A DNA stretch of 64,000 bases, taken from NCBI RefSeq assembly GCF_013385985.1, contig NZ_JACAOY010000006.1, positions 526,198-590,197 of the forward strand. Reading direction: 5' to 3'. The position numbers and the translations under genes are program-made. Source of the DNA: Pseudomonas sp. B6002. Lineage in GTDB: Bacteria > Pseudomonadota > Gammaproteobacteria > Pseudomonadales > Pseudomonadaceae. The notes beneath the pieces are model-generated. The model saw nothing but the letters and a program-made list of their open reading frames with translations. It did not search any database and was not told the origin of the DNA. The first letter of the stretch is position 1. The number at the start of each line of letters is the position of its first letter. Below are positions 1,713-31,780 of this stretch, piece by piece.

Positions 1713-1818
1713 TGTAGTGAGCGGGCTTGCCCCGCGCCAGCGTCAACCCGGCCACCCAGGTTAAATTGTCAAATTGCGATCTCGGCGGCGCCGGCGCGGG
1801 GCAAGCCCGCTCACTACA
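1713..1818. repeat. REPIN: two perfect 26-nt inverted REP arms
   Basis: The left arm 1713-1738 (TGTAGTGAGCGGGCTTGCCC...) is the exact reverse complement of the right arm 1793-1818, with a 54-nt spacer. This is the REP-doublet form dispersed by RAYT transposases in Pseudomonas. It lies in the leader of the next gene and ends where that gene's AGG ribosome-binding purines begin. The 277-bp gap 1553-1829 otherwise holds only the proP upstream region. Confidence 0.88.
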
Positions 1819-1829
1819 GGAATATTCGT

Positions 1830-2360: not shown

Positions 2361-2406
2361 CATTTCACATCGCCGCGTAATACCTGAATAACAGCGATCT
2401 TTCAGA

Positions 2407-2435
2407 TTGACAGCCTGTAGGCGGCCCGATATAAA
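2407..2435 (+). promoter_or_regulatory. Sigma-70 promoter of the MFS gene at 2504
   Basis: TTGACA (2407-2412) is followed after exactly 17 nt by TATAAA (2430-2435), close to the consensus. Transcription would start near 2442, leaving a leader of about 60 nt. Confidence 0.7.
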
Positions 2436-2452
2436 AGTCACAGTTGTACGAC

Positions 2453-2474
2453 GACATATGACGTTATGTATGTC
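2453..2474. promoter_or_regulatory. Inverted repeat, possible operator in the leader
   Basis: GACATA (2453-2458) and TATGTC (2469-2474) are separated by 10 nt, just downstream of the predicted start of transcription. The position suits a repressor of the permease gene, but no linked regulator gene is present and the family is unknown. Confidence 0.4.
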
Positions 2475-2503
2475 TTACCTAACAAAAATAAAAAAGTGAT
2501 GCC

Positions 2504-3907: not shown

Positions 3908-3916
3908 GGCGAGACG

Positions 3917-3939
3917 TCCCGCGCCGCAACGGCGCGGGA
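3917..3939. terminator. GC-rich hairpin between convergent genes
   Basis: TCCCGCGCCG (3917-3926), a CAA loop and CGGCGCGGGA (3930-3939) form a perfect 10-bp stem in the 37-bp gap between convergent genes. There is no clear T-tract on either side, so efficiency as an intrinsic terminator is uncertain. Confidence 0.6.
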
Positions 3940-3944
3940 TGGCT

Positions 3945-13987: not shown

Positions 13988-14136
13988 CGAGACGACCATC
14001 AACGGGGAGGGCGGCCAAATCGTCGACTCCGGGCGAGGGGCGGCGATTTGCTATCACTGTCTGTTTCGGCTCGATGCAGGGAAATCTTTAGCGATATTTT
14101 GTGTACAACAACAATACGTTTTGTCCTGAATATTTT

Positions 14137-15741: not shown

Positions 15742-15752
15742 AGGTGGTCATT

Positions 15753-17246: not shown

Positions 17247-17725
17247 ACCGTCGCGTTGACGGCTTGAGCCGGTAGCGCCCCCGGCGTCTTGATGGTCTTG
17301 GTCACGATGTAGGTGAAGTAGCGCTCGATGGCCAAGTCTTCCAGCAGCAATTGGTCGATGAAACGCTGATACGCGTCGATGTCGGCGGCGCGAATCATCG
17401 CGATGTAGTCCACGCCGCCGCCGGTGGCGTAGCAGAACTCCACCTCCGGCGCGTCGCCCATGCGGTGTTCGAAGCGGCGCATGTCCTGGGCGGTGTGACG
17501 GGCCAGGGTGATTTCCACCAGCAACTGCTGGCTCTTGAACACCTGGTTCCAATCGATCACCGCACGATAGCCTTTGACCAGGCCCGCGTTCTCCAGCTTG
17601 CGCACACGCTCCCAGGCTGGCGTGACCGATAAGTTGATCGCCTCGGCCAGGCGGGACTTGGTGATGCGCCCATCCTCGGAAAGGATGCGCAGGATGTTCA
17701 GGTCATAACGGTCAAGCTTGTGCAT
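17237..17725 (-). CDS. Lrp/AsnC family regulator
   Basis: A 162-residue regulator with an N-terminal helix-turn-helix (LDRYDLNILRILSEDGRITKS, AEAINLSVTPAWERVRKLE) and a C-terminal RAM effector domain (QLLVEITLARHTAQDM). Such proteins sense amino acids. It lies downstream of the aminotransferase gene on the same strand, separated by a REPIN, and may regulate the aminotransferase-dehydrogenase-importer genes; this is inferred from position only. Confidence 0.87.
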   Translation of the reverse strand: MHKLDRYDLNILRILSEDGRITKSRLAEAINLSVTPAWERVRKLENAGLVKGYRAVIDWNQVFKSQQLLVEITLARHTAQDMRRFEHRMGDAPEVEFCYATGGGVDYIAMIRAADIDAYQRFIDQLLLEDLAIERYFTYIVTKTIKTPGALPAQAVNATVQD

Positions 17726-17886: not shown

Positions 17887-19272
17887 TCAGCCGAGGATTT
17901 CCCCCGCCACCTGGTCAATCGCACCCTTGGTGATATCGACGATCAGGTCCGCCTCTTCACGCGTCAAAATCAACGGCGGAGCAAAGCCGAGGATGTCGCC
18001 GTGGGGCATGGCCCGCGCAATCATGCCGCGTTCCAGGCAGGCCGCCGAGACTTTCGGGCCGACTTTCAACCCGGCATCGAACGGCGTGCGCTGCTCGCGA
18101 TCGGCCATGAACTCCACGGCGGCGAGCATGCCGTCGCCGCGTACTTCGCCCACCAGCGGGTGACCTTCGAGGGTTTCGCGCAGGCGACGGTTGAGGTACG
18201 CACCCACGTGCTCGGCATTCTCTGTAAGGTTTTCACGCTCCAGGATGTCGAGGTTGGCCAGTGCCGCCGCCGCGCAGATCGGGTGCCCCGAATACGTCCA
18301 GCCGTGGCCCATGGCGCCGTCGGTGGTGGAGGCTTTTTCGATCACGTCCCACACTTTTTCGCCAATGATCACCGCCGACAACGGTGCATACGCGCTGGTC
18401 AGTCCCTTGGCGGTGGTGATCAGGTCCGGGCGCATGCCATAGCGCTGGCTGCCCATCTTCGACCCCAGGCGGCCGAACGCACAGACCACTTCATCGGCAA
18501 TCAACAGCACGTCGTATTTGTTCAGCACCGCCTGGATTGCCGCCCAGTAACCGGCCGGAGGCACCACGATGCCGCCGGTGCCCATCACCGGTTCACCGAT
18601 GAAGGCCGCCACGGTGTCCGGGCCTTCGGCAAGGATCATCTTTTCCAGCTCATCGGCGCAGTAACGCACAAACGCGGTTTCATCCATGCCCGCCGGAGCC
18701 TTGCGGTACCAGTGCGGGCACACCGTGTGCTGGATGCCTTGCTCTGGCAAGTCAAAGTGCTGATGGAAGGCCGCAAGGCCCGTGAGGCTGCCGGTCATGA
18801 TGCCCGAGCCGTGGTAGCCACGGTCGCGGGAGATGATTTTCTTCTTCTGCGGACGGCCCAGCACGTTGTTGTAATAGCGCACCAGCTTGATCTGGCTTTC
18901 GTTGGCGTCGGAGCCCGACAGGCCGTAGTACACCTTCTTCATGCCCTCTGGCGCCCAATCCATGATGCGACTCGACAGCTCGATAATCGCCTCCGTCGAG
19001 TGGCCGACGTAGGTGTGGTAGTAGGCCAGCTCCTTGGCCTGCTTGTAGATCGCGTCCGCCACTTCGGTACGGCCATAGCCGATGTTCACGCAATACAGCC
19101 CGGCAAACGCGTCGATGAAGTCACGCCCTTCGTGGTCACGGATGCGGATGCCTGACGCGCTCTGGATGATGCGGCCTTTCAGCGCGCCGCTGGCATGGTC
19201 GTGGGCGTGGGTGGACGGGTGCATGAAGTGCGCGCGGTCCTGTGCGAACAGGTGGTCGAGTTCGTGGTTCAT
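17887..19272 (-). CDS. Class III omega-aminotransferase
   Basis: A 461-residue PLP-dependent fold-type I aminotransferase. Class III motifs: FIDAFAGLYCVNIGYGR, GLSGSDANESQIKLVRYYN (phosphate region), RDRGYHGSGIMTGSLTG, LLIADEVVCAFGRLG (PLP-pyridine Asp) and TTAKGLTSAYAPLSAV (Schiff-base Lys). It resembles putrescine/diamine and beta-alanine:pyruvate aminotransferases. Its ATG overlaps the dehydrogenase stop by 4 nt (19269-19272), so amino-group transfer and oxidation of the resulting semialdehyde are probably consecutive steps. The amine donor is unknown. Confidence 0.85.
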   Translation of the reverse strand: MNHELDHLFAQDRAHFMHPSTHAHDHASGALKGRIIQSASGIRIRDHEGRDFIDAFAGLYCVNIGYGRTEVADAIYKQAKELAYYHTYVGHSTEAIIELSSRIMDWAPEGMKKVYYGLSGSDANESQIKLVRYYNNVLGRPQKKKIISRDRGYHGSGIMTGSLTGLAAFHQHFDLPEQGIQHTVCPHWYRKAPAGMDETAFVRYCADELEKMILAEGPDTVAAFIGEPVMGTGGIVVPPAGYWAAIQAVLNKYDVLLIADEVVCAFGRLGSKMGSQRYGMRPDLITTAKGLTSAYAPLSAVIIGEKVWDVIEKASTTDGAMGHGWTYSGHPICAAAALANLDILERENLTENAEHVGAYLNRRLRETLEGHPLVGEVRGDGMLAAVEFMADREQRTPFDAGLKVGPKVSAACLERGMIARAMPHGDILGFAPPLILTREEADLIVDITKGAIDQVAGEILG

Positions 19273-20756
19273 AGCGAGTCTCCTTTGAATTGTCCTTGGT
19301 GGTGCAGGCAAAAGTATTTGGTTTCGACAAAGGCCTCGAAGCCCTCGTTGCCGCCTTCGCGGCCCAGGCCCGAGGCTTTCATGCCGCCGAACGGAATCGG
19401 GTGGCCGGTGAATTTCACGCCATTGACCGCCACCATGGCGTGGTCGAGGCGACGGATCAGCGGGTAGATCAGGTCCAGGCGGTTGGAACAAATGTAGGCG
19501 GCCAGGCCGTACTCGGTGTCGTTGGCCAGGGCAATCGCCTGCTCCAGGCTGTCGAAGGGCATTACCCCGGCAATCGGCGCAAAATTTTCTTCGCGATAGA
19601 TGCGCATCTCGGGCGTGACATCCGCCAACACCGTCGGCTGGTAGAACAAGCCGCCCAGTGCATGGGCTTCACCGCCCACCAGGCGTTGCGCGCCCAGCTG
19701 CAAGGCGTCTTCCACCCGTGCGGCGGTCACATCGAACGCGGCCTGATGCATCAACGGGCCAACGTCCACGGCGTGTTCTTCGCCGCCTACCAGTGCAGGG
19801 CCCACGCGCAGCTCGCGCACGGCGGCGGCAAAGCGCTTGAGGAAGGAGGGGTAGATCGAGCGGTCGACGAGGATGCGGTTGGCGGCGCAGCAGTCCTGGC
19901 CGGAGGTCTGGAACTTGGCCTCGACCGCGACCTTCACCGCCAGGCCCAGGTCGGCGTCGGCACACACAATGAACGGCGCATTGCCGCCCAGTTCCAGGGC
20001 GACCTTCTTCACGTCCTGGGCGGCCGCTTGCAGCACCAGCTTGCCCACGCGGGTCGAGCCGGTGAAGCTCACCGAACGCACGCGGCTGTCTTGCACCAGG
20101 GTTTGCATGGCCATCTGCGGCTCGCCCAGCACCACGTTGAACACCCCGGCCGGGAAGCCGGCTTCCTCGGCCAGTTGCGCCAGGGCAAAGGCCGAGTAGG
20201 GCGTTTCATGGGCCGGCTTGACCACCACCGTGCAACCCGCTGCCAGGGCGGCAGCAGCTTTGCGCGTGATCATTGCCGAGGGGAAGTTCCACGGCGTCAG
20301 CAGGGCGCACACACCCACCGGTTCCTTGAGCGTGCCCAGGTGCGCACCGGGAATATGGCTGGGGATGTTCTGCCCGTACAGGCGCCGGGCTTCGTCGGCA
20401 AACCAGGGGATGAAGCTGGCGGCGTAAGCGATTTCGCCCCGGGACTCGGCCAGGGATTTGCCTTGCTCCAGGCTCAGGATGCGGGCCAGGTCTTCCTGGT
20501 GTTCCAGGATCAAACTGGCCCAGCGCTTGAGGATAGCTGCGCGGGCGTCCAGGCTCTGTTCGCGCCAGGCCGGGAAGGCGCGATGCGCGGCCTCCACGGC
20601 GGCCGTTATCTGCGCTTGTTCGAGCATCGGCACATGGCCGATCACGTCCTGGGTCGCCGGGTTGTACACGGCAAGGGTGCTTGCGCTGTCACTGTGGACC
20701 CAATGGCCGTCGACATAGCACAGCGCCTTGAACAGCAGTGGGTGTTTGTAAGTCAT
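19269..20756 (-). CDS. NAD(P)-dependent succinate-semialdehyde dehydrogenase-like (GabD/Sad type)
   Basis: A 495-residue aldehyde dehydrogenase. It has the cofactor and oxyanion segment LTPWNFPSAMITRKAAAALAAG, the general-base motif ALELGGNAPFIV, the nucleophile in SGQDCCAANRILVDRS, and the late EENFAPIAGVMPF. Spacing is typical of GabD/Sad enzymes that oxidise succinic semialdehyde to succinate. I start at ATG 20756. It is co-translated with the aminotransferase and lies downstream of the ProX-like gene after a REPIN. It could supply the final step of the neighbouring ring-cleavage pathway. Confidence 0.84.
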   Translation of the reverse strand: MTYKHPLLFKALCYVDGHWVHSDSASTLAVYNPATQDVIGHVPMLEQAQITAAVEAAHRAFPAWREQSLDARAAILKRWASLILEHQEDLARILSLEQGKSLAESRGEIAYAASFIPWFADEARRLYGQNIPSHIPGAHLGTLKEPVGVCALLTPWNFPSAMITRKAAAALAAGCTVVVKPAHETPYSAFALAQLAEEAGFPAGVFNVVLGEPQMAMQTLVQDSRVRSVSFTGSTRVGKLVLQAAAQDVKKVALELGGNAPFIVCADADLGLAVKVAVEAKFQTSGQDCCAANRILVDRSIYPSFLKRFAAAVRELRVGPALVGGEEHAVDVGPLMHQAAFDVTAARVEDALQLGAQRLVGGEAHALGGLFYQPTVLADVTPEMRIYREENFAPIAGVMPFDSLEQAIALANDTEYGLAAYICSNRLDLIYPLIRRLDHAMVAVNGVKFTGHPIPFGGMKASGLGREGGNEGFEAFVETKYFCLHHQGQFKGDSL

Positions 20757-20878
20757 GGTGGTGGCTCCCAATCGTCTGAGTGCAGTCATGCTAGGGCAGG
20801 GCGGCGCAAGAAAAGGCGGGTTTGGCGGGGGTGGGGCAGTGGGTTTTTTCTGATTGCAGGTGCCATTTCCGGTGATTT

Positions 20879-20969
20879 CTGTGGGAGCCGGGCTTGCCCG
20901 CGATGCAGGCGCCTCGGTGCAACTGCTATACCGAGGTGATGCCATCGCGGGCAAGCCCGGCTCCCACAG
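20879..20969. repeat. REPIN with perfect 27-nt arms between importer and dehydrogenase genes
   Basis: The left arm 20879-20905 (CTGTGGGAGCCGGGCTTGCC...) is exactly complementary to the right arm 20943-20969, and an inner CCTCGGT/ACCGAGG stem extends the hairpin. It sits just after the stop of the binding-protein gene, where such elements can protect upstream mRNA or dampen read-through. Confidence 0.88.
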
Positions 20970-20990
20970 GAGAACGGGTTACATGCCGGG

Positions 20991-22016
20991 TTATTTGGCG
21001 GCTTTGGCCGTGGCGACCCAGCCGTCGAAGGTGGCTTTGTTTTCACTCATCCAGTCATCCGCCAGCTTGCGAATGTTGCGTTCGCTGGAGCCGTCCTGGC
21101 TGATGGTTTTTTCCCAGTAGCTCCAGGTCGACTGCGGGAACGTCATCTGTTCCACCAGCGCTTTCACCGCCGGGTTGGCCGCGATGAATTGCTTGTTGCC
21201 GATGGCGTACCAGTTCCACGCGGCCATTGCCATGCGGCACGGGTCGGCGCCGCCTGCACACCCTTCCACGCCGGGGGTGAGGGCGCTGGTGGTGCTCGGC
21301 ACGTTGCCGGGCAATGCATCAAACGGCGTCGGCAGCCACACCACGTCCTTGCCGGGGACCATGGTGTTGGTCATCCACGACGGCGCCCAGGCATAGAAAA
21401 ACACCGGCTCGCCGCGCTTGAGGCGCGCGACGTTTTCGAACATCAGCGCTTCGTACTTTCCGCGCACCGGGTTCACTGTGGCCTTGAGGCCGAACTTGTC
21501 GAGCTGGTAATCCACCACATCGCCGCAGCCCCAACCCGGGTCGCAGCTGATCAGGTCAGCCTTGCCGTTCTTGCCGAACAGCGCGGCGATCTTCGGGTCT
21601 TTCAACTGCTCAAGGCTGGTGATGTGGTACGCGTCGGCGGTTTTCTTGTCGATCATGTAGCCGTTGTAGCCGGCGCCGGTGATGGAGCCGCCACCGACCA
21701 CTTCAGTACGGTCCTTGACTTTGTCGAAGCTGGGTTGCAGCTGCGGCAGGGTCACGTCCATCGACAGGTCCAGGTCGCCCTGGGCGGCGGCCGGGAAGAA
21801 CAGCGTGGTATTGACGGTACTCAGCTTGCTCCCATAGCCGAGGCGCTTGGCGGCCTCGATGGCGATCTTGGTGATGACGTAGTTGCCACCGGTACTTTCC
21901 GACTGCACGAAGCGGATGGTCTTGCCGTTGCCGGGCAGGTCTTCGGCCATGACCGAAGTGCTCCCCAGGTACAACACGGCTGCAAATCCAAGCAAGGCGT
22001 TGAATGGACGCATCAT
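20991..22016 (-). CDS. ProX-like periplasmic betaine-binding protein
   Basis: A 341-residue exported solute-binding protein of the OpuAC/ProX family. The signal peptide is MMRPFNALLGFAAVLYLG..VMA with cleavage before EDLPG. Family segments: TIRFVQSESTGGNYV, DVTLPQLQPSFDK, FFYAWAPSWM and the ProX-like VPGKDVVWLPTPFDALPG. Tryptophan and tyrosine residues that could cage a quaternary ammonium group are present. It is the last gene of an ATPase-permease-binding-protein operon. Substrates of relatives include glycine betaine, proline betaine, carnitine and choline; here an aromatic betaine is possible. Confidence 0.83.
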   Translation of the reverse strand: MMRPFNALLGFAAVLYLGSTSVMAEDLPGNGKTIRFVQSESTGGNYVITKIAIEAAKRLGYGSKLSTVNTTLFFPAAAQGDLDLSMDVTLPQLQPSFDKVKDRTEVVGGGSITGAGYNGYMIDKKTADAYHITSLEQLKDPKIAALFGKNGKADLISCDPGWGCGDVVDYQLDKFGLKATVNPVRGKYEALMFENVARLKRGEPVFFYAWAPSWMTNTMVPGKDVVWLPTPFDALPGNVPSTTSALTPGVEGCAGGADPCRMAMAAWNWYAIGNKQFIAANPAVKALVEQMTFPQSTWSYWEKTISQDGSSERNIRKLADDWMSENKATFDGWVATAKAAK

Positions 22017-22085
22017 GATTTCCTCTTTGTTTTTCTCGTTATGGTTAAGGGATGGCAGTCAAAAAACGACGTTCATGATTTCTTG

Positions 22086-22982
22086 TTATGCGCTGACCGC
22101 CCGCAGGGTGAACAGCCGCTTGAACAGCGATTTGCGCTTGCCCGGCGTGGGCTGCGCGAGGTTCTGGGTGATGCGGTCGAGCATCATCGCCAGCAGCACA
22201 ATGGCGATCCCGCCGACCGCCGCGCGGCCCACGTCCATGCGTCCCAGGCCTTGCAGCACCACCAGGCCGAGGCCTTCGGCACCGATCATGGCGACGACGA
22301 CGGACATCACCATGGCGGTGAGCACCGTCTGGTTGAGGCCACCGAGGATGGTCGGCACGGCCAGGGGCAACTGGATCTCCCAGAGCAACTGCTTGCGGTC
22401 GGCACCGAACGCCAGGCCGGCTTCCACCAGTTCGGTTTCGACCATGCGGATGCCCAGGTAGGTAAAACGGATCAGCGGCGGGCACGCCGAAATCACCACC
22501 GCCACTTCACCCGACACGGTGCCCACGCCAAACAGCATCACCACCGGCACCAGGTACACGAAGGTCGGCGTGGTTTGCATGATGTCGAGGATCGGCCGCA
22601 TCACCGCCCACACCCGCTCACTGCGCGCGCACCAGATTCCCACCGGGATACCCACCACCATGCAGATCACAATCGCGGTGGTGATCAACGACAGGGTGGT
22701 CATGGCTTCGTCCCACACGCCCAAGGCGGCGATCACCACCAGCGCGGCGGCACTGAAAATGGCCACGCCCAGGGTGGCGGCGCGGTAGGCGATGAGGAAC
22801 ATCAGCACCACCATCACCGGGAACGGAATGGCGTGGATCAGCGTGTCGCTGAAGCCCAGCAAGTGTTCCACCGGCCAGCGGATGGCCTGGAAGATCGGGC
22901 GCAGGTGGATGCCGATCCACTCCACGCCGCCGCTGATCCATTGGTCCACGGGAAAAACAGCGAGGTCTTCTGACTTAAGCAT
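22086..22982 (-). CDS. ProW-like ABC permease for betaines
   Basis: A 298-residue inner-membrane permease of the BPD_transp_1 (OpuAB/ProW) type with six or more helices and the EAA-loop region MVETELVEAGLAFGADRKQL followed by P-L-A-V-P. I start at ATG 22982, which has GGAGG 9 nt upstream inside the end of the ATPase gene, giving an 8-nt overlap. It forms the channel for the ProX-like protein with the ProV-like ATPase. Confidence 0.85.
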   Translation of the reverse strand: MLKSEDLAVFPVDQWISGGVEWIGIHLRPIFQAIRWPVEHLLGFSDTLIHAIPFPVMVVLMFLIAYRAATLGVAIFSAAALVVIAALGVWDEAMTTLSLITTAIVICMVVGIPVGIWCARSERVWAVMRPILDIMQTTPTFVYLVPVVMLFGVGTVSGEVAVVISACPPLIRFTYLGIRMVETELVEAGLAFGADRKQLLWEIQLPLAVPTILGGLNQTVLTAMVMSVVVAMIGAEGLGLVVLQGLGRMDVGRAAVGGIAIVLLAMMLDRITQNLAQPTPGKRKSLFKRLFTLRAVSA

Positions 22983-24171
22983 GATGTGCAACCTCCGAAA
23001 CGGCAGGGCGAGGGGGCGGGACGCTGGCGATGCAATCGAGGATATGGGCGCTGTTCAAGGTGCCGACAAACAGCCCGTCGGCATCGGCGACCGCCACCGG
23101 GTGGCCCGGTTTGAGCAGGCGCGCCACTTCCACCAACTTGGCGCTGGCCGGCACGCTGACGAACTGCGGCGACAGGCGCTGCAAGGTATCACCGCCTGCG
23201 CCTACCGCCAGCAACGCGCCGGCATCCAGAACGCCTACGGCTTTGCCGGCCGCATTGAGTACAAAGGCATGGGCGCTGTCATTGCCGACCACGCGGGTGT
23301 CGCCCTGTACCAGCAGGGTGCTGGCCGGCTGCATGATCGAGCGCGCATCGAACAGTCGCGAGCGGTCCACTTCCCGGGTGAACCCGGCCACATAATCGCT
23401 GCCCGGGTCGGCGACGATTTCCTGGGGCGTGCCTTCGCGCACCACTTGGCCATCGGCCATGATCGCGATGCGCGTACCCAGCTTCAGGGCTTCCTGGAAG
23501 TCGTGGGTGATGAACAGGATGGTTTTCTTCAACGTGCGCTGCAGGCGCAGCAACTCGTCCTGCATCTCGGTGCGGATCAGCGGGTCGAGGGCGCTGAAGG
23601 CCTCGTCCATGATCAACACGTCGGCGTCGGTGGTCAGCGCCCGGGCCAACCCTACGCGCTGGCGCATGCCGCCCGACAGCTCGTGAGGGTGGTGGTCGGC
23701 CCACTTGGCCAAGCCAACCACCCCAAGCACTTCCAGGGCACGCTTGCGCCGTTCGGCAAGGGGCACGCCGCGCAGCTTGAGGCCGAACTCGGTGTTCTCG
23801 ATCACGGTCTTGTTCGGCAGCAGGGCGAAGTGCTGGAACACCATGGAAATCCGCGTGCGGCGCACGTCGCGCAGCTCGTTTTCGTTGAGGGTGACCAGGT
23901 CCCGGCCGTCCAGCAGGATCTTGCCCGCCGTCGGCTCATTGAGGCGGTTGATGCACCGCGCCAGGGTGGATTTGCCCGAGCCGGACAAGCCCATGATCAT
24001 GTAGATCGCGCCGCTGGGGATCGACAGCGACACGTTGTTGAGGCCGACCACCGTGGCGGTCTCCGCCAGGATCCGGTCTTTGCTGGCGCCAGCGGTCAAG
24101 AGCTGCATGGCTCGGTCGGGCGCCGAAGAGAACACCTTATACAGGTTCTCGATCTTTAGTCGTTCGCTCAC
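22975..24171 (-). CDS. ProV-like ABC ATPase with C-terminal CBS domains
   Basis: A 398-residue ATPase of the quaternary-amine uptake group. Walker A is GLSGSGKST (residues 61-69), the Q-loop VFQHFALLPNKTV, the signature LSGGMRQRVGLARAL, Walker B VLIMDEAFSALDP, and the switch His FITHDFQEA. The N-terminus carries the ProV-like VFSSAPDRAMQLL; the C-terminus (about 290-390) holds two CBS-type repeats, which in OpuA sense ionic strength. The start is GTG 24171, six nt after GGAGG. It is the first gene of the importer operon. Confidence 0.86.
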   Translation of the reverse strand: MSERLKIENLYKVFSSAPDRAMQLLTAGASKDRILAETATVVGLNNVSLSIPSGAIYMIMGLSGSGKSTLARCINRLNEPTAGKILLDGRDLVTLNENELRDVRRTRISMVFQHFALLPNKTVIENTEFGLKLRGVPLAERRKRALEVLGVVGLAKWADHHPHELSGGMRQRVGLARALTTDADVLIMDEAFSALDPLIRTEMQDELLRLQRTLKKTILFITHDFQEALKLGTRIAIMADGQVVREGTPQEIVADPGSDYVAGFTREVDRSRLFDARSIMQPASTLLVQGDTRVVGNDSAHAFVLNAAGKAVGVLDAGALLAVGAGGDTLQRLSPQFVSVPASAKLVEVARLLKPGHPVAVADADGLFVGTLNSAHILDCIASVPPPRPAVSEVAHHA

Positions 24172-24205
24172 CAATTGCCTCCAATTGTTGTTTTGCTATC
24201 TGCGG

Positions 24206-24226
24206 AAATTTCATCAAGAGAAATTT
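24206..24226. promoter_or_regulatory. AT-rich inverted repeat upstream of the importer operon
   Basis: AAATTTC (24206-24212) and GAAATTT (24220-24226) are separated by 7 nt, 35-55 bp upstream of the ProV-like start. A further AAATTTC occurs near 24285. The site may bind a regulator of the importer, but I cannot assign a family. Confidence 0.4.
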
Positions 24227-24346
24227 TTGGGCTACTGGCAGTCAAAGGTCCGTCGGTGGTGCAGTCGCAAGGGGCAACGCAAAAATTTCTTGTTGTTCGA
24301 CAAAGCAGTTACAGCATGAGCGTGGGGCGGGTGCAAGGGGTGGGCG

Positions 24347-24742
24347 TCAGCCGGTAGGCGATTCCATCGGGGCCATGCCTTCCCGGGCCTTGCGCGCCAC
24401 GCGGAAGGCTTCGACGCCCGCCGGAATGCCGCAATACACCGCGATTTGCACCAGGGCTGCGCGCAATTGCTCATCGGTCAAACCGTTGCGCAGGGCGCCG
24501 CAAAAGTGCACGCCAAACTCCTCCATGCGCCCCAGCGCCGCGAGCATGCCCAGGTTGAGCAGGCTGCGTTGCTTGAGGTCCAGGGCGTCGTCGGTCCAGA
24601 CCATGCCCCAGCAATATTCATTCAACACGTCCTGGAACGGCCGCGAGAATTCGTCGGCCCGGCCCAGGGCCTGGTCGACGTAGGCGTCCCCCAGCACTTG
24701 GCGGCGTACGCGTTCGCCACCGGCCTGCAATGACTTATCCAT
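24347..24742 (-). CDS. Carboxymuconolactone-decarboxylase family protein
   Basis: A 131-residue AhpD-like helical protein. It has the PcaC-like length and segments WTDDALDLKQRSLLNLGML, GVHFCGALRNGLTDEQLRAAL and QIAVYCGIPAGVEAFRVA. Family members are PcaC decarboxylases or peroxidase-like enzymes; only single, separated Cys residues are seen here, not the CxxC of AhpD. It is the last gene of the six-gene catabolic operon and overlaps the hydrolase gene by 8 nt. It might act on a lactone or decarboxylate an intermediate of the proposed ring-cleavage route. Confidence 0.82.
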   Translation of the reverse strand: MDKSLQAGGERVRRQVLGDAYVDQALGRADEFSRPFQDVLNEYCWGMVWTDDALDLKQRSLLNLGMLAALGRMEEFGVHFCGALRNGLTDEQLRAALVQIAVYCGIPAGVEAFRVARKAREGMAPMESPTG

Positions 24743-25547
24743 GGTGGGTCTCCGAATCGGTTAAAAAGTCGCGCATCAGCGCCGCCACTTGCTGCGGTGC
24801 CTCTATCAGGATGCAGTGGCGCAGCCCCGGCAGAATCCGCAGGGTCGAACCCTGGATTTGCTCGTGCATGTACGTCGCCATGCGCGGGTTGGAGCCGAGG
24901 TCATCGGCGCCGGTGGCAATGAGTGTCGGGCAGCGGATCAGCCCCAGTTGCTCGCCGAAATCCGATTCGGCGAGCACCCGGTACGCCGCGGCGTAACACC
25001 CCGGGTCATTGGCGGCATTCAATTGCCGCAAGCGCAGCACGGCATCCGGGTTCTGTGCCTGGAACGCCTCGGTCAACCAACGCGCCAACGAGGCTTCGTA
25101 ATGCGCCACAGGCTCGCCGGCTTGCAGCGCGACCAGGCGCGCTTTAACCCGCTCACGTTCTTCGGCATTGCGCCCGGCCACGGTCGACAACAGCACCAGC
25201 CGGCGTACCCGCTCAGGATGGGTCAGCACCAGCCGCTGGGCGATCAGGCCCCCCAGCGAAAACCCCGCCAGGTCGAATCGCCCAAAACCCACGTGTTCGG
25301 CCAGCGCCAGGGTTTCACCCACCAGATGGTCGATTTCATAACGCCCTGGCGTGCGCGACGACTGCCCATGGCCGCGCAGGTCGAAGGTCAGTACCGTGAA
25401 GTCGTCCTTCAAGCCCTGCACCACCTCGGCCCAGGCGTCCAGGCTGGAACCCACACCGTGGATGCACACCAGCGGCCGAGGCCCGTGCCCATCGAGTCGG
25501 TAGTTGAGCGTGACATTCGCCACGCTGAGTTGTTGTGCGTCGCCCAT
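24735..25547 (-). CDS. Alpha/beta hydrolase, enol-lactonase/TgnD-like
   Basis: A 270-residue hydrolase: oxyanion region CIHGVGSSLDAW, nucleophile elbow AGFSLGG, acid strand near ATGADDLGSNP and catalytic His in LRHCILIEAP. The layout matches 3-oxoadipate enol-lactonase relatives. In trigonelline catabolism TgnD, an alpha/beta hydrolase, cleaves (E)-2-((N-methylformamido)methylene)succinate to succinic semialdehyde, methylamine, formate and CO2; the neighbours make that type of role likely. It lies 3 nt from the LLM gene and overlaps the CMD gene. Confidence 0.8.
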   Translation of the reverse strand: MGDAQQLSVANVTLNYRLDGHGPRPLVCIHGVGSSLDAWAEVVQGLKDDFTVLTFDLRGHGQSSRTPGRYEIDHLVGETLALAEHVGFGRFDLAGFSLGGLIAQRLVLTHPERVRRLVLLSTVAGRNAEERERVKARLVALQAGEPVAHYEASLARWLTEAFQAQNPDAVLRLRQLNAANDPGCYAAAYRVLAESDFGEQLGLIRCPTLIATGADDLGSNPRMATYMHEQIQGSTLRILPGLRHCILIEAPQQVAALMRDFLTDSETHHG

Positions 25548-25550
25548 GGC

Positions 25551-26627
25551 TTACCCCGCCACCGTTTCGCGACGTTTGGCGCGTTCGCGCTCGGCGAACA
25601 CCGGCATCACCTCGTCGATGAACAGGCGCAGGGTTTGCTTCTGCAATTCGAACGGCAGGTTGAAGGTCAGGCCCAGGCAATATTGATCGACGCCGGCCGC
25701 TTCATAGTCGAGCAGCTTGGCGATGATTTCGTCCGGGGTGCCGAACATCAGGTTGCGGCGGATGTTGTCCGGGTTGTAGTTCTCTTTACCGCGCACCGCC
25801 TCAAACGGCACCGGCTCGGGGAAACCGTTGTGCACAGTGCCGACGTTCTGCATCAGGTTCTCGAACGCACGGCCAAAGTCCATGCTGTGTTGCACCGGCA
25901 CTTGCCAGTCTTCCGGGTTGGCGTAGACGCAGGTGCGCCGTTGCATCATGAAGCGCGGGCGCGGCACGTGGGGGTTGTCGGCCACGGCCTTGTTGAATTT
26001 CTCGCCGAGCACGGCGATTTCCGCCGCGGGCAAGGAGAGCGGGGTGGACAGAATGTTCGCGCCGATGCCCACCGCCCAGTCGAAGGTGCCCGGGTCACGT
26101 GCGGCCACCCAGATGCGCGGGTGGTCCTTTTGCAAGGGTTTGGGCACCGCAGCGGTCAGCGGGAATTTCCAGTAATGACCGTCGTGGGCGTAGTCACCGG
26201 CCCAGAGTTTCTGCACCGCCGGCACCAGTTCCTTCATGTAGCCGACGCCTTCCTGCTGTTGCAGGCCGGGGGTCATGCGGTCGAATTCGTACTGGTAGGA
26301 ACCCCGGGCGATGCCGAACTCCAGGCGGCCTTTGGTCAAGTGATCGCACAGCGCCGCTTCACCGGCCAGGCGGATCGGGTGCCAATAAGCGGCCGCGATG
26401 GTCGCGGTGCCCAGGCGGATGCGCTCGGTGTGCTGGCCGAGCCAGGTCAGGGTCTGGAACGGGTTGGGTGCGATGGTGCATTCCAGGGTGTGGTGCTCGG
26501 ACGTCCACAGGGTTTCAAAGCCGCCTTCGTCGGCGATCTTCGCCAGCTCCAGCAGGTTGGCCATGACGGTCTGCATCGGCACGTCCGGGGAGAAACGTTC
26601 CATGCTCAGGGATACGGCAAATTTCAT
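25551..26627 (-). CDS. LLM-class flavin-dependent monooxygenase (TgnB-like candidate)
   Basis: A 358-residue luciferase-like TIM-barrel oxygenase: MKFAVSLSMERFSPD at the first strand, LWTSEHHTLECTIAPNPFQ, RIRLGTATIAAAYWHPIRLA, the LLM signature LEFGIARGSYQYEFDRM, and ILSTPLSLP. Such enzymes take reduced flavin from a partner reductase, here the product of 28180-29118, and insert oxygen into a substrate. In trigonelline and pyridine catabolism they open the ring. It sits mid-operon between hydrolase and dehydrogenase genes. The exact heterocycle is inferred. Confidence 0.82.
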   Translation of the reverse strand: MKFAVSLSMERFSPDVPMQTVMANLLELAKIADEGGFETLWTSEHHTLECTIAPNPFQTLTWLGQHTERIRLGTATIAAAYWHPIRLAGEAALCDHLTKGRLEFGIARGSYQYEFDRMTPGLQQQEGVGYMKELVPAVQKLWAGDYAHDGHYWKFPLTAAVPKPLQKDHPRIWVAARDPGTFDWAVGIGANILSTPLSLPAAEIAVLGEKFNKAVADNPHVPRPRFMMQRRTCVYANPEDWQVPVQHSMDFGRAFENLMQNVGTVHNGFPEPVPFEAVRGKENYNPDNIRRNLMFGTPDEIIAKLLDYEAAGVDQYCLGLTFNLPFELQKQTLRLFIDEVMPVFAERERAKRRETVAG

Positions 26628-26645
26628 GTGTGGCTCCTTGAATAA

Positions 26646-28157
26646 TCAGCGCAGGCGAATCACGAACGGGTCCTGCATCTCGCCGGAGTAGTCGATGATC
26701 ACGTTCTTGGCGCGGGAGAACTCGCGCATCACATCAAAGCCGCCGCGTCGCCCGTAGCCGCTCTGTTTGAAGCCGCCGTTGGCCGACATGTAGGCCGAAC
26801 TGCGGTAGGTGTTGATCCACACCGTGCCGGCGTCGATGCGGTTGGCAAAGCGCAGGGCGCGGTCGATGTTCTGGGTCCAGATGCCCGAGGCCAGGCCGTA
26901 GGCGGTGTCGTTGGCCAGGCTGATCATCTGTTCTTCGGAACTGAACGGCATCACGCCCACCACCGGCCCGAACAGCTCGTCGCGCATGAACGGCATGTCG
27001 TTGCGGGCGTTGGCCATCACCGTCGGTTCGAAGTACCAGCCTTCGCTCAGATGCGCCGCGCTCGGGCGTTTACCACCGATGGCGGCCTGGGCGCCTTGCT
27101 GCAGGCCGCTGGCGATATAGCCTTCGATTTTTTGCAGTTGGGCCTGCAGTGCAAGCGGGCCAATGTCGGTGTTCGCTTCCATGGGGTGGCCCACGGTGAT
27201 TTTTTGCGTGCGCGCCACCAGCGCTTCCACAAACTGGTCGTAGATCGAGGCTTCGACAAAACAACGCGAGCCGGCCACGCAGCTTTGCCCGGCGGCGGCG
27301 AAAATCCCCGAGACCACGCCGTTGACGGCTTTCTCGATGTCGACGTCGGCGAACACCACGTGGGGTGATTTGCCGCCCAACTCCATCTGGCACGGCACCA
27401 GGTTGTTCGCCGCGTTGCCGGCAATGCGGCGGCCGGTGTCGGTGCTGCCGGTAAACACGTACTTGGCGATGTCCGGGTGGCGGGTCAAGGCATCGCCGGT
27501 GATCGCGCCGTTGCCGGTGACCACGTTGACCACGCCGGCCGGGAAGCCCGCCAGGATGATCAATTCGGCCAGGGCCAGGGTGGAGGCGCTGGCGTGTTCC
27601 GACGGTTTGATCACCACGGTATTGCCGATCGCCAGGCACGGCGCCAGGGTGCCGGTGAGCAGCATCAGTGGCGAGTTCCACGGGGTGATCATGCCGACCA
27701 CGCCCAGGGGCTCGCGGCTGCTGTAATTGAGCTGGTTGAGCTTGTTCACCGGGATCACTTCGCCTTGCAGCTTGTCGGCCATGCCGGCGAAGTAGGTGTA
27801 GGCGTCGGGCAGGGCGCTCATTTGCGCGCTCATCTCGCGCAGCAGCTTGCCGTTGTCGCGGGTTTCCAGCAGGGCCAGTTCCTCGGCGTGTTCGGCCACC
27901 AGTTGCGCCAGGCGATAGAGCAGCTTGCCCCGTGCGGTGGGCGTGATGTCGCGCCACTGCGGGTCGTGGAAGGCGCGCTTGGCCGATGCCACCGCGCGGG
28001 CGACATCGCTGGCGTCGCCCTGGGCGAACTGGTACCAGGCCTGGCCGGTGGTGGGGTCGAAGCTGTCGACATAGGTGCCGCTGGCCGGTTCGACGAAGCG
28101 GCCGTCGATAAACAGGTTGAGACGATTGCCCTCAAGGGCGCTGACCGTGGTTTTCAT
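26646..28157 (-). CDS. Aldehyde dehydrogenase (TgnC-like candidate)
   Basis: A 503-residue NAD(P)-dependent ALDH. It shows VGMITPWNSPLMLLTGTLAP, the cofactor loop VFTGSTDTGRRIAG, the general base MELGGKSPHVVF, the nucleophile in AAGQSCVAGSRCFVE, and the C-terminal YGRRGGFDVMREFS. I start at ATG 28157; a longer frame adds an unconserved extension. In the Tgn pathway the ALDH oxidises the semialdehyde/hydroxylactone made by ring cleavage. It lies between monooxygenase and reductase genes, 18 and 22 nt from its neighbours. Confidence 0.84.
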   Translation of the reverse strand: MKTTVSALEGNRLNLFIDGRFVEPASGTYVDSFDPTTGQAWYQFAQGDASDVARAVASAKRAFHDPQWRDITPTARGKLLYRLAQLVAEHAEELALLETRDNGKLLREMSAQMSALPDAYTYFAGMADKLQGEVIPVNKLNQLNYSSREPLGVVGMITPWNSPLMLLTGTLAPCLAIGNTVVIKPSEHASASTLALAELIILAGFPAGVVNVVTGNGAITGDALTRHPDIAKYVFTGSTDTGRRIAGNAANNLVPCQMELGGKSPHVVFADVDIEKAVNGVVSGIFAAAGQSCVAGSRCFVEASIYDQFVEALVARTQKITVGHPMEANTDIGPLALQAQLQKIEGYIASGLQQGAQAAIGGKRPSAAHLSEGWYFEPTVMANARNDMPFMRDELFGPVVGVMPFSSEEQMISLANDTAYGLASGIWTQNIDRALRFANRIDAGTVWINTYRSSAYMSANGGFKQSGYGRRGGFDVMREFSRAKNVIIDYSGEMQDPFVIRLR

Positions 28158-28179
28158 GCAAGTGTCCTGTGTGTGCGGA

Positions 28180-29118
28180 TCAAAGCGGGGCGTTTTCGAG
28201 CATCGCGATGCGCCCGCTGGCGGCGGAGCCGGTGTAGATACCGAATTGCTGGTTCTCGCGTTCGCGGGCATAACGACGCACCACCGAGCGCAGTTCGTTG
28301 ACCGGCATCAGGTCGATGGGCAGGTCGTCCAGCGGGAAGAAGCGCAGGGTGTCGGGCAGTTCGGCCTCCAACGCGCCAAGTTGGGCGCGATAGATCAGGA
28401 AGCCCGGGTCGGTGTCATCCACGTCGAACACCGAATACAAAAAGGTCGATTCCAGCTCCACCGGCAGGGCGCTGCTGCCGGCGTCGATAAAGCCCTTGCG
28501 CTTGCCCGCCACGGGCAGGGTCCAGCCGCCCTTGCCGTCAGCGCGGAACAGAATCGCGCCGTCGGTTTCGATCAGGTAGCCGATGATCATCTTGTGCGAG
28601 TCCAGCCAGCTGGCTGGCAGCGGGTCCTGGATATTCGCGTAACGCCCACGGCAGAAGCACAGGGGCAACTTGGGGCTGGTGCCGAAGGCGCGCACCTGGC
28701 CGATCAGCACCAGGTGGTCGCCGGCGTCGATGCGCTGGTGCACGCTGCAGTCGAACCAGGTCAGGCTGTCGGTGAGGATGGGCGCACCGGTGTGCACGGT
28801 GTCGTGGTTGACGGTGTGGAACTTGTCCGGCGACTTGGAGGCGAAGGTGCCGGAGACATCCACTTGCCCTTCATGCAGCAGGTTGACGGCAAAGTGCTCA
28901 CTGGCTGCAAACGCGCCGTGGCTGGCAGCGGATTTCCCGACGCACACCAGCAACAGCGGCGGGTCGAGGGAAACCGAGGTGAACGAATTGGCGGTCATGC
29001 CCCGAGGGTTACCGTCGGCGTCATGGGTGGTGATCACGGTCACGCCGGTTACAAAGGTGCCGAAGGCCTGGCGCAAGGCGCCTGGGTCGACGGCTGCAAC
29101 GTTGTCGGTACTCGGCAT
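28180..29118 (-). CDS. Flavin reductase with NUDIX-like C-terminal extension (TgnA-like candidate)
   Basis: A 312-residue protein. Residues about 10-165 form a flavin-reductase-like FMN-binding split barrel (LRQAFGTFVTGVTVITTHD, MTANSFTSVSLDPPLLLVCV). The remaining 145 residues resemble a NUDIX fold (GYLIETDGAILFR, GGWTLPVAGKRKG) but lack a recognisable NUDIX box. Simple two-component reductases are about 170 residues, so the extension is notable. It should supply reduced flavin to the LLM oxygenase two genes downstream. Confidence 0.82.
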   Translation of the reverse strand: MPSTDNVAAVDPGALRQAFGTFVTGVTVITTHDADGNPRGMTANSFTSVSLDPPLLLVCVGKSAASHGAFAASEHFAVNLLHEGQVDVSGTFASKSPDKFHTVNHDTVHTGAPILTDSLTWFDCSVHQRIDAGDHLVLIGQVRAFGTSPKLPLCFCRGRYANIQDPLPASWLDSHKMIIGYLIETDGAILFRADGKGGWTLPVAGKRKGFIDAGSSALPVELESTFLYSVFDVDDTDPGFLIYRAQLGALEAELPDTLRFFPLDDLPIDLMPVNELRSVVRRYARERENQQFGIYTGSAASGRIAMLENAPL

Positions 29119-29231
29119 CGGAGTGCTCCTGTTGTTGGGGTGTCAAGCAAGCCTACGGGCGGTTTCAACCCCAGGCTTGCGACGATCACGGGTAATACCC
29201 TGGAAAGTTTTGCGCGGTTTCAGCGCAGGGC

Positions 29232-29831
29232 TCAGTCCTTGGGCTGCTCGGCTTCCATCTCCGCCATGTCCTGATAACGGTCGGCAATGCGTGGGTGGGC
29301 GCGAGAACCGTCCGAGGCACCAATGGCGATCAGCACTTCATCCGGCCCCGGGGCATCGGCCACCTGGAAGTTGGCGGTGAGGAAGTGCGAGCGCTTGCCG
29401 GTTTCGCTCTTGTGCACCATTGGCAAGGCGAGCAGGGCGCCCGGGGCGTTGCGGGTGTTGGTGAAGCTCAGGTAGGCGGTGCCTTCCACGGCTTCGCGGA
29501 ACAGGTTGCCAAAGCGCAGGGTGTGGATCAGGCCCGAGGCGTGCTCGATCTCACCGTTGACGCCCACGGCGGCGGCCTTGCCAAAGGCTTCGACTTTGCC
29601 TCCCGGCATCAGCGCAATCAGGCGGCGGGTCATTTCGTGGCCCAGGCCGGGGGTCAGGCGCAGGATCTCGGGGCGCAGGTTTTCGACGAAGCCCTGGCCG
29701 GCCCAGGGGTTTTTCAAGATGGCGGCCACCACGATCAGCGTGATGGGTTTGCCGGCGTCCTTGCCCCCTTCGATAAAGGTTTCTTCGATGAAGGTGCAGT
29801 ATTTCCTGACGCCCAGATTGTCCAGATTCAT
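29232..29831 (-). CDS. AA_synth (DUF1185) family protein
   Basis: A 199-residue protein of the 'amino acid synthesis' family PF06684, whose biochemical activity is not established. Recognisable are LGVRKYCTFIEETFIEGGK, the AGQGFVENLRPEI segment and AFGKAAAVGVNGEIEHASG. It is the first gene of the catabolic operon, 113 bp ahead of the reductase, with its promoter in the 176-bp gap shared with the divergent PucR-type gene. Frequent linkage of this family to LLM oxygenases suggests a role in heterocycle breakdown; this is inference. Confidence 0.8.
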   Translation of the reverse strand: MNLDNLGVRKYCTFIEETFIEGGKDAGKPITLIVVAAILKNPWAGQGFVENLRPEILRLTPGLGHEMTRRLIALMPGGKVEAFGKAAAVGVNGEIEHASGLIHTLRFGNLFREAVEGTAYLSFTNTRNAPGALLALPMVHKSETGKRSHFLTANFQVADAPGPDEVLIAIGASDGSRAHPRIADRYQDMAEMEAEQPKD

Positions 29832-30007
29832 GATGAGGTGTCGCCCTTGTGGCTGTTGGTTTGACCCAAGGCTATGGGCAAAGGCAAAACCCGTCTTCCG
29901 TCGTTTCGGCGCATAAAAGCAGTGGACATTGCTACGAAGTGGAGCAAGTATCAGGCGGGCCGGGCAGGCACCTTGGCTGCCATGTTCCACCCGTTCAGGT
30001 GAGCGCC

Positions 30008-31780
30008 TTGAATCGAGAAATGCAGATACTGTCGCTGCGCGACGTGGCCAGCCAGATCAACTCCGGCGGCGACTTGCAGTCGATGCTGCACCAGTTGGTG
30101 TACGCCAGCTGCCGCCATACCCACTGGACCATGAGTTCGATCATGGCCATCGACATGGAGGCGGGGTTCGGCCATGTGATCGCCCGTCACGACCCCACCC
30201 TGGTGCAGCGCCCGCTGGTGGACAGTTGGGAGCTGTCCTCCAGCCCGGTGATGACCGCGTTGCAGCGCAACGAACCGGTGTTTATCCGCGACGTGCGTGA
30301 TTGCGAGTACCCGGGCTATCGCCGCGAATCGGTGGAGCGCGACTACCGCACGGTGATGGTGATGCCGATGAACTGCACCGACTTTGACGGTCGGCCCATG
30401 GTGCTCAGCGTGATTTCCCGCACCTTGATGGACGTGTCCGAAGAGGACCGGGTGTTCCTCGGCATGATCATCCACCTGGGCGCCATCGCCGTGGAACGCC
30501 AGCGTCAGCTGGAAGCCGAGCGCCGCGCCGCCGAACGCATGCAGCAGGCGCTGCATGTGCACACCTCGATGCTGGAGCACGTGCTGGGTGGTGGTTCGGT
30601 GGGGTCGCTGTCGCTGATGGTCGGCAACCAATTGCCCAACCCGGTGATCGCGGTGGACTTCACCGCCAACCAGGTGGTGGCGGGGCGCTCACCGGACACC
30701 GCGCTGTTCGACGACAGCAGTTGGCAGGCGGCTGCGGCCGGCGTGCTCAGTGTGCAGATCACCAAGACCGCCCAGGACAGCCTGCGCAGTGCCCTGCGGA
30801 ACACCGTCAACCTGTTTCTCGACGACGGCCAGCGCCAGTTCACCCTGCGGGCGCAGATCGAACCGCTGATGGTCGACCATGAGCTGGTGGGTGCGCTGGT
30901 GTTGTTCCCGGTGGCGGCGCCGGTCAATGAACTGGATTTGCTGATGCTCGAAAGCGCCAAGTTCGCCCTCAGCGTGCAGATGATGCGCAGCTTTATCCGC
31001 TTCCGTTTCGAGACCCGCACCCAGACCGAACTGCTGTTCGAAGTGCTCGAAGGCCGCTGGCGCGATGCCGACGACATCCAGCAACGTGCCCAGCGCCTGG
31101 GTATCCAGTTCAACCAGGCGCAGCAGATGATCATCATCGACTACGGCGCCAAGGCCCGTGAAGCCAAGAACCTGCACCACAACGTCGCGCGCATCCTGGC
31201 TCGCGCGTCGATCCCGGCCACGGTCATCAGTGTCGATAACGGCCTGGTGTGCCTGGTGCCCGCCGAAGGCGAAAAGGGCCGCGAGCGCCGAACCAAGGTC
31301 AAGCGCCAGATCGCCGAAGACCTGGCCCACTACCTGGGCGGCGAGCCGCTCCTGCTGGCCAGCGGCGTCTGCCACGCCCTCACCGATTACCCCGGCGCCT
31401 GGGAACGGTGCCGTCGCCTGATCGACATCGCCCGCTCGTTTGGCCGCAGCGGGCCGATCTCTGACCAGGACTTCGGGCCCATCCCGATCTTCGTGGCTGC
31501 GGTGGGCGGCGAAGACATCCGCACCTTCGTCAACGAGAGCGTCGGCGCCATGCTGGAGCACGACCGCAAGCACCAGACGCCGTACCTGGAAACCCTCACC
31601 GCCTACTTGCGCGAAAGCTGCCGCAGCCAGGCCTGCGCCGACGCGATGGGCGTGCACGTGACCACGCTGCGTTACCGCCTGGCGCGTATCCAGGAGTTGT
31701 TCGGTATTGATGTGGAGACGCCGGAGCGCCGGTTTGCCACGGAGCTGGCGATCCATTTGCAGCGGGTGATCGACAGTTAA
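30008..31780 (+). CDS. GAF-PucR family transcriptional regulator
   Basis: A regulator of about 590 residues. The N-terminal 180 residues look like a GAF sensor (LHQLVYASCRHTHWTMSSIM, VFLGMIIHLGAIAVERQRQ). The middle resembles a CdaR GGDEF-like domain, and the C-terminus is the PucR helix-turn-helix (YLRESCRSQACADAMGVHV, TTLRYRLARIQELFG). I start at TTG 30008 with AGGTGA five nt upstream; ATG 30020 is the alternative. It is divergent from the catabolic operon and is its probable activator. Its stop overlaps the ggt stop by 4 bp. Confidence 0.83.
   Translation: MNREMQILSLRDVASQINSGGDLQSMLHQLVYASCRHTHWTMSSIMAIDMEAGFGHVIARHDPTLVQRPLVDSWELSSSPVMTALQRNEPVFIRDVRDCEYPGYRRESVERDYRTVMVMPMNCTDFDGRPMVLSVISRTLMDVSEEDRVFLGMIIHLGAIAVERQRQLEAERRAAERMQQALHVHTSMLEHVLGGGSVGSLSLMVGNQLPNPVIAVDFTANQVVAGRSPDTALFDDSSWQAAAAGVLSVQITKTAQDSLRSALRNTVNLFLDDGQRQFTLRAQIEPLMVDHELVGALVLFPVAAPVNELDLLMLESAKFALSVQMMRSFIRFRFETRTQTELLFEVLEGRWRDADDIQQRAQRLGIQFNQAQQMIIIDYGAKAREAKNLHHNVARILARASIPATVISVDNGLVCLVPAEGEKGRERRTKVKRQIAEDLAHYLGGEPLLLASGVCHALTDYPGAWERCRRLIDIARSFGRSGPISDQDFGPIPIFVAAVGGEDIRTFVNESVGAMLEHDRKHQTPYLETLTAYLRESCRSQACADAMGVHVTTLRYRLARIQELFGIDVETPERRFATELAIHLQRVIDS

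Follow-up and report, generated by a model that had tools for sequence, protein, structure and literature searches.

Trigonelline, a compound from plants, is reportedly degraded in Acinetobacter baylyi by the enzymes TgnA–D. TgnAB cleaves the C–C bond that adjoins the nitrogen of the ring, TgnC oxidizes the aldehyde, and the products set free by TgnD are formate, methylamine, CO2, and succinic semialdehyde; pyridine degradation in Arthrobacter uses PyrA/PyrE. Here we analyze a 64,000-nt stretch of the genome of Pseudomonas sp. B6002 (the window), in which a flavin reductase, a luciferase-like monooxygenase (LLM), an aldehyde dehydrogenase (ALDH), and an alpha/beta hydrolase, the enzyme classes of the Tgn cluster, are encoded beside a ProVWX-type importer and an aminotransferase of the kind found in ectoine catabolism. 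With slightly more doubt than belief, we read these genes as a complete catabolic module of a Tgn sister type that would release a C4 omega-amino acid from a zwitterionic pyridinium compound. It represents a conserved family that is sister to the trigonelline system and has importers and a regulator of its own, and the genomic link between the LLM and the ectoine-type aminotransferase narrows the range of substrates to compounds that may give off an omega-amino acid.

The core of the module lies on the minus strand. It starts with an AA_synth protein (PF06684, DUF1185; 29232–29831; 206 bits), followed by a flavin reductase with a long C-terminal part that would serve the LLM (28180–29118; PF01613, 146 bits), an ALDH predicted to carry out a TgnC-like step (26646–28157; PF00171, 568 bits), and the LLM itself, the putative ring-cleaving oxygenase (25551–26627; PF00296, 175 bits). 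A PcaD-like alpha/beta hydrolase with a presumptive TgnD-like role (24735–25547; PF00561, 107 bits) and a carboxymuconolactone decarboxylase-like protein (CMD; PcaC-like), a putative decarboxylase (24347–24742; PF02627, 71 bits), complete the row. These six genes are tightly packed: the first five are separated by 113, 22, 18, and 3 nt, and hydrolase and CMD overlap by 8 nt. The ProVWX genes follow 172 nt past CMD, and 234 nt further on comes a semialdehyde dehydrogenase (SSADH; 19269–20756, minus) that overlaps a class III aminotransferase (17887–19272, minus) by 4 nt. A GAF-PucR-type regulator (about 30020–31780, plus; PF13556, PF17853) is divergent from the core. Five open reading frame starts were shifted by eye to a later ATG. 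The preliminary description had proposed a ring-cleavage system for an N-heterocyclic betaine with a quaternary-amine importer; its twelve named genes, with their strands and coordinates, are correct, every class is confirmed by Pfam, and the window holds all four step classes together with the semialdehyde dehydrogenase and an importer of the quaternary-amine type. It had omitted the Lrp/AsnC regulator that comes next (17237–17725, minus; Pfam), which is part of the same gene set.

A scan of genome contigs with the window LLM returned 217 pattern matches and 200 relatives, of which the best 80 loci, all at least 75% identical, were taken. Neighborhoods were mapped by tblastn and by clustering of called genes, and all counts refer to genes within 10.5 kb of the LLM. 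Together with L087, L089, L119, L226, and L219, these loci make up a clade A set of 85 rows, 84 of them distinct (L219 repeats L026), which does not count the window itself. By tblastn, ALDH, LLM, and hydrolase are side by side in 80/80 of the best loci, so that this grouping is more than chance, and most also carry the flavin reductase, AA_synth, and PucR genes. Across the clade A rows, ALDH and hydrolase are found in 85/85 and PucR, flavin reductase, and AA_synth in 83/85 each, followed by CMD (48/85), NIPSNAP (35/85), Lrp at 40% identity or more (33/85), SSADH/GabD at 42% or more (22/85), and a GhrA-like dehydrogenase (18/85). According to the record titles, the hosts include Pseudomonas, rhizobia, Caballeronia, Azospirillum, and Bosea. 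The module is thus a real, conserved, and widespread system.

For comparison with the Tgn system we used clusters from A. baumannii (L090), S. meliloti (L088), and B. multivorans (L112), whose activity on trigonelline is assumed. S. meliloti L088 is on pSymA, which we take to be the home of the trigonelline (trc) genes, and has nifT annotated about 10 kb from the cluster. As previously proposed, the enzyme set matches that of a known system, Tgn, as seen in the Acinetobacter and pSymA clusters. The window LLM is 41–45% identical to the LLMs of the three stand-ins, with corresponding values of 46–47% for ALDH, 33–38% for the flavin reductase, and 32–34% for the hydrolase; the S. meliloti and Acinetobacter loci share 72% in LLM and 71% in ALDH. 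In a tree of 81 LLM rows, made by a quick method with a very long outgroup branch and an unsure root, the window falls within an A/A' clade of 15 rows (Shimodaira–Hasegawa-like approximate likelihood ratio test, SH-aLRT, 99), apart from the B clade of 37 rows (SH-aLRT 100) that holds the Tgn-type enzymes. Membership of the Tgn family proper is thus supported neither by the position of the LLM in this quick tree nor by the 32–47% identity of the four enzymes to the stand-ins; by sequence comparison, "Tgn relative" is right as to enzyme class and wrong as to clade.

The neighborhoods differ along with the LLMs. Nine loci of group B1 with full flanks all contain GntR, AA_synth, hydrolase, flavin reductase, LLM, and ALDH genes (9/9), in a gene order different from that of the module, and some contain CMD (2/9), NIPSNAP (3/9), SSADH (3/9), NCS1 (3/9), or PotH (5/9). 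At the thresholds used, PucR, ProVWX, and the aminotransferase are each found in 0/9 B1 loci. Conversely, GntR (1/85), NCS1 (0/85), and PotH (1/85) are nearly or wholly absent from the clade A rows, against PucR in 83/85. PucR is also present in 5/5 A' loci and in 0/6 of the B2 set and 0/16 C loci, and AA_synth occurs in 8/16 C loci. The module thus shares AA_synth, SSADH, and CMD with at least some Tgn-type loci, and differs from them in having PucR rather than GntR, ProVWX or an SBP_bac_3-type ATP-binding cassette (ABC) importer rather than NCS1 or PotFGHI-like transporters, a linked aminotransferase, and an altered LLM active site. Four components had earlier been offered as additions to the Tgn set; PucR and ProVWX hold up as such, whereas AA_synth and CMD do not.

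Further LLM groups lie beyond these two. A third set, C, drawn from the genome samples around the host of L060 and around Rhizobium G301, is 45–52% identical to the window LLM and has ProVWX-like genes in some loci. Plasmid-borne homologs, sampled as an even spread of 60 of 419 matching records, form groups at 75–80%, 41–46% (including L090 and pSymA L088), and below 30% identity, a gap partly filled by values of 46–71% in other genome sets. Several LLM clades with different neighborhoods thus exist and should not all be labeled trigonelline enzymes. Among 299 Pseudomonas genomes, 169 contain LLM matches (E 1e-40), eight of them clade A (93–100%) and the other listed ones 42–46%; few LLM candidates were scored per genome, which makes absences soft. 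Clade A and B matches occur together in 5/8 clade A Pseudomonas and in 2/3 A/A' genomes around Rhizobium G301, the only genome with such co-occurrence whose B copy (L125) was placed in the Tgn-type clade.

The common B-type LLMs of Pseudomonas (L204–L209) have NCS1 and PotFGHI-like transporters nearby but no recognizable Tgn set. ALDH, hydrolase, and AA_synth are missing there at the thresholds used, yet L204 has an ALDH at 38%, and flavin reductases are found at 31–32% in L204 and L206. Given the missing genes and the NCS1/Pot transporters, these loci are something other than plain Tgn clusters. In the Rhizobium-order sample, genome G550 contains seven LLM-family relatives at 29–62% identity, some in neighboring pairs. 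More remote is plasmid pLDW-10 of Arthrobacter crystallopoietes (L091), which resembles the module in its LLM, flavin reductase, ALDH, CMD, and PucR genes and differs in an LLM only 28% identical to that of the window and in having no alpha/beta hydrolase annotated. It also encodes EthD, an amidohydrolase, and a nearby BCCT transporter, and looks like a distant analog of the module.

A comparison of 98 clade A rows (with repeats), 34 B1 rows, and 21 C rows identified 32 LLM positions that are fixed differently between A and B1 at a level of at least 90%. At position 231, all A rows and four A' rows (L156–L159) have Arg where B1, B2, and C rows have His, and the B1 aromatics Tyr252, Trp258, and Trp319 are replaced by Gly, Leu, and Gly in clade A. 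In an hhalign alignment (probability 85.7), positions 231 and 229 fall on His228 and Arg226 of E. coli SsuD, presumably active-site residues. The AlphaFold model of the LLM (predicted local distance difference test, pLDDT, 93.0) has a luciferase fold, in which residues 231 and 319 belong to strands and residues 252 and 258 to a helix.

These changes bear on whether the module could be a second, divergent trigonelline pathway that acts on the Tgn substrate, releases methylamine, and oxidizes succinic semialdehyde with its local dehydrogenase. The enzyme classes are those of Tgn, a semialdehyde dehydrogenase is at hand, and a ProU-type system could plausibly import trigonelline. Moreover, a single LLM of this type, and no other full-length relative above 25%, is encoded in the host genome (6.68 Mb, scored 100% complete); the next matches reach 36–39% identity across roughly 100 residues or 25% across most of the protein. 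However, the LLM belongs to a separate starred clade with altered active-site positions, Rhizobium G301 carries this LLM type alongside a Tgn-type (B1) LLM, importers and regulator are different, and the linked aminotransferase would be superfluous for methylamine. We consider a divergent trigonelline pathway unlikely, though it deserves to be kept in view.

The importer points to the nature of the ligand. Clade A rows contain either ProVWX (42/85) or an SBP_bac_3 amino-acid-type ABC system (41/85), and both in 0/85; the two rows without an importer are L023, on a short contig, and L071, which has ProX and ProW at the locus edge. For the SBP_bac_3 protein of L016, the highest-scoring models are those of Lys/Arg/Orn and cystine binders, with both scores under the cut-off. 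Such alternation fits a ligand that is both quaternary-amine-like and amino-acid-like. In the window, the ProX-like binding protein (20991–22016, minus) is over the cut-off of the ProX family NF008334 (369.5 vs 215 bits), the ProW-like permease (22086–22991, minus; PF00528) scores 321.6 bits against a cut-off of 439 in NF008196, and the ProV-like ABC ATPase (22975–24174, minus) is under the cut-offs of ProU- and choline-specific models, though over that of TIGR01186 (352.6 vs 326.6 bits). We take Trp65, Trp140, and Trp188 to be the cage residues of E. coli ProX. In an alignment with 1r9l, the window protein has Thr at the Trp65 position and retains the other two. The same position is Asn in 36 and Thr in 8 of 44 ProX sequences from clade A loci, a few of them second copies within a locus, and those of Trp140 and Trp188 are Trp in 44/44. 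The three-Trp quaternary-ammonium cage is thus incomplete in the window ProX and in 44/44 clade A proteins, which sets these importers apart from ProU despite their family scores.

Homarine (N-methylpicolinate), or a similar N-methyl pyridine carboxylate, would belong to the same class of N-methylpyridine betaines. A homarine catabolic pathway has been published, and Tgn-like chemistry would be expected to give an N-methylglutamate-type product, reportedly also that of the published pathway. Such a product does not suit the SSADH, CMD, and aminotransferase of the module. In addition, among 244 genomes of the order that hosts L060 (Rhodobacterales by record), 78 have LLM matches and only one, the host of L060, has a clade A match; the remaining matches are 27–49% identical. 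A substrate of this kind therefore seems very unlikely to us. Three clade C loci (L186, L187, and L189) combine ALDH-LLM-AA_synth-hydrolase with a divergent ProVWX-like importer and are candidate homarine genes.

The preliminary description had treated the aminotransferase and semialdehyde dehydrogenase as generic enzymes. Their identities lead elsewhere: the window aminotransferase (NF005684/PRK07482, 848.9 bits; diaminobutyrate/omega-amino acid type), dehydrogenase, and Lrp are 77%, 69%, and 64% identical to their counterparts in a Caballeronia doe cluster, and the dehydrogenase is only 44–45% identical to the SSADHs of two Tgn-type loci. By this similarity, the three are of the DoeD, DoeC, and DoeX type of ectoine catabolism, which provides a new lead. 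The Caballeronia cluster has the order ehu-eut-doeA-doeB-Lrp-SSADH-AT (AT, aminotransferase), Salinivibrio has doeA-doeB-Lrp-SSADH-AT with an aminotransferase 64% identical to that of the window, and the ehu/eut region of S. meliloti pSymB has Lrp and an aminotransferase at 62%. Where ectoine catabolism employs an ectoine hydrolase, the module has LLM ring-opening genes. In R. phaseoli, Lrp-SSADH-AT directly adjoins the module and no doeA or doeB is annotated in the 25 kb shown. Neither DoeA nor DoeB was found in the host genome of the window (G000), where the best family scores are 32 bits for DoeA (cut-off 613) and 41.9 bits for DoeB (cut-off 402.7).

A class III aminotransferase at least 45% identical to that of the window or to the GabT of L119 is found at 22/85 clade A loci and 0/36 loci of other clades. 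Seventeen loci have the DoeD type and six the GabT type (L014, L015, L049, L071, L076, and L119, the last over the TIGR00700 cut-off), with both at L071, so the slot near the LLM is filled by two unrelated kinds of enzyme. We then searched the 299 Pseudomonas genomes for the aminotransferase (E 1e-190) and for DoeA over its cut-off in addition to the LLM, and found a clade A LLM in 8, the aminotransferase (at least 64%) in 66, and DoeA in 61. Exactly seven have the aminotransferase without DoeA (G000, G044, G048, G119, G129, G232, and G261); all seven are clade A genomes, with the aminotransferase 6.2–6.4 kb from the LLM. In the eighth clade A genome, G208, the aminotransferase is beside doeA on contig 3, and the LLM locus keeps the Lrp gene without SSADH-AT. 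DoeA without the aminotransferase occurs in G085 and G235. At seven loci of Pseudomonas, the aminotransferase has a median ratio of nonsynonymous to synonymous substitution rates (dN/dS) of 0.048 over 21 pairs, indicating strong purifying selection, and the LLM one of 0.064. In an aminotransferase tree of 30 rows, module-linked and ectoine copies group by host lineage, and the linked/ectoine label requires six changes, four of them forced by starred branches.

Several observations weigh against this reading of the module as releasing an omega-amino acid. Given the relatedness of the genomes and the physical linkage of the genes, the seven Pseudomonas cases are not seven independent events. Such an aminotransferase is lacking within 10.5 kb at 63/85 clade A loci (some cut by contig ends) and at all A' loci (0/5 linked), so that it may be accessory. 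Beyond Pseudomonas the association is weaker: DoeA is over the cut-off in 4 of the 17 genomes with a DoeD-type gene near the LLM (16 of the 17 loci, without L226, plus the window), two more have M24 matches of 583 and 446 bits, and DoeA is present in 14 of the 31 clade A genomes given. At L019, eutB, eutC, doeA, and doeB (368–4598; all four NCBIfam-verified) are directly beside the LLM module, and members of the same ectoine gene clusters lie upstream of the LLM in the Azospirillum loci L066, L068, and L076; because ectoine genes adjoin the module in this way, DoeC/D/X may be neighbors or remnants. Equally few changes suffice for 41 of 500 label shuffles on the aminotransferase tree, which does not fix the direction in which the label changed. 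The LLM pocket residues were assigned by alignment and secondary structure rather than from coordinates. Finally, a study of a Pseudomonas AAC strain describes KES23360, apparently of the same family as the window aminotransferase, as 63% identical to the characterized diaminobutyrate transaminase of Halomonas elongata, adjoining an SSADH gene, and transaminating GABA (gamma-aminobutyrate) with pyruvate (PMC4476821). It accepts GABA, cadaverine, and 12-aminododecanoate, and its authors read it as a likely GabT homolog (PMC4476821). Since this related enzyme is described there as accepting several substrates, the aminotransferase does not fix the identity of the amino acid.

Some of these points would suit a locus in which the LLM module and SSADH-AT-Lrp are independent neighbors, one acting on an N-heterocycle and the other on GABA or polyamines or left over from ectoine catabolism; the many loci without a nearby aminotransferase, the adjoining ectoine clusters, and the GabT assignment of KES23360 all agree with it. 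On the other hand, among the sampled Pseudomonas without DoeA the aminotransferase occurs only alongside the module, it is intact under purifying selection, and its label changes on the tree, which makes mere adjacency rather unlikely in our judgment.

In the pathway we propose, with release of an omega-amino acid, ProVWX would import a zwitterionic N-heteroaromatic (pyridinium) compound and PucR would sense the same compound. The flavin reductase would supply reduced flavin, with which the LLM may open the ring oxidatively next to the nitrogen, a step transferred from TgnAB/PyrA chemistry, and the ALDH would turn the resulting aldehyde into an acid. Formyl group and amine would then be removed by the PcaD-like hydrolase, perhaps with AA_synth, whose AlphaFold model (pLDDT 90.7) has clear structural matches only to the DUF1185 proteins 3byq and 2qtp. 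The PcaC-like CMD could decarboxylate the beta-formyl acid to succinic semialdehyde. We infer that the freed amine is a C4 omega-amino acid (2,4-diaminobutyrate or GABA), not methylamine, because methylamine needs no transaminase and an omega-amino acid does. The DoeD-type aminotransferase would turn it into a semialdehyde, to be oxidized by the DoeC-type dehydrogenase, possibly along with the ring-derived one.

If an omega-amino acid is released, the compound taken up would probably be a larger betaine or a pyridinium amino acid and not trigonelline. The transaminase, the importer type, the altered ProX cage, and the changed LLM positions together suggest that the nitrogen substituent is likely larger than methyl and bears a carboxylate. 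Diaminobutyrate, from a nicotianine-like substrate, and GABA both fit, the GabT-type enzymes favoring GABA and the DoeD type diaminobutyrate. Nicotianine is nicotinate with a 3-amino-3-carboxypropyl group on the ring nitrogen. We regard as quite unlikely a specific pathway for pyridinium amino acids such as nicotianine, in which a re-tuned ProU or amino-acid ABC system imports the compound, the ring yields succinic semialdehyde in Tgn-like steps, and diaminobutyrate is converted to aspartate via DoeD/DoeC that ectoine catabolism supplied on more than one occasion. In that case, Arg231 and the loss of the three LLM aromatics might make room for an extra carboxylate and bind it.

The hydrolase and CMD could also be taken as signs of an aromatic or lactone pathway with a substrate that is not N-heteroaromatic. 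Their best NCBIfam models are of the PcaD and PcaC type, both under the cut-off (TIGR02427, 168 vs 256 bits; TIGR02425, 124 vs 156 bits). They co-occur, however, with an LLM of a Tgn-related family and with ProU or amino-acid importers, and the module genes include no dioxygenase, CoA-transferase, or cycloisomerase, which renders such a pathway highly improbable.

In a pattern scan, sigma-70-like sites numbered 0 against 2.3 ± 1.5 in shuffles and terminator-like sites 19 against 12.3 ± 3.3, so the scan does not establish operon borders. The genes around the module include a gamma-glutamyltranspeptidase (31777–33450, minus) directly beyond, and convergent with, the PucR gene. On the other side, between the Lrp gene and a methyl-accepting chemotaxis protein with a dCache sensor (12047–14002, minus), lies an FAD-binding hydroxylase (FAD_binding_3; 15744–17246, plus) that has an EamA transporter and a MarR regulator beside it; the chemotaxis protein, a few kilobases from the module, could sense the same class of compound.

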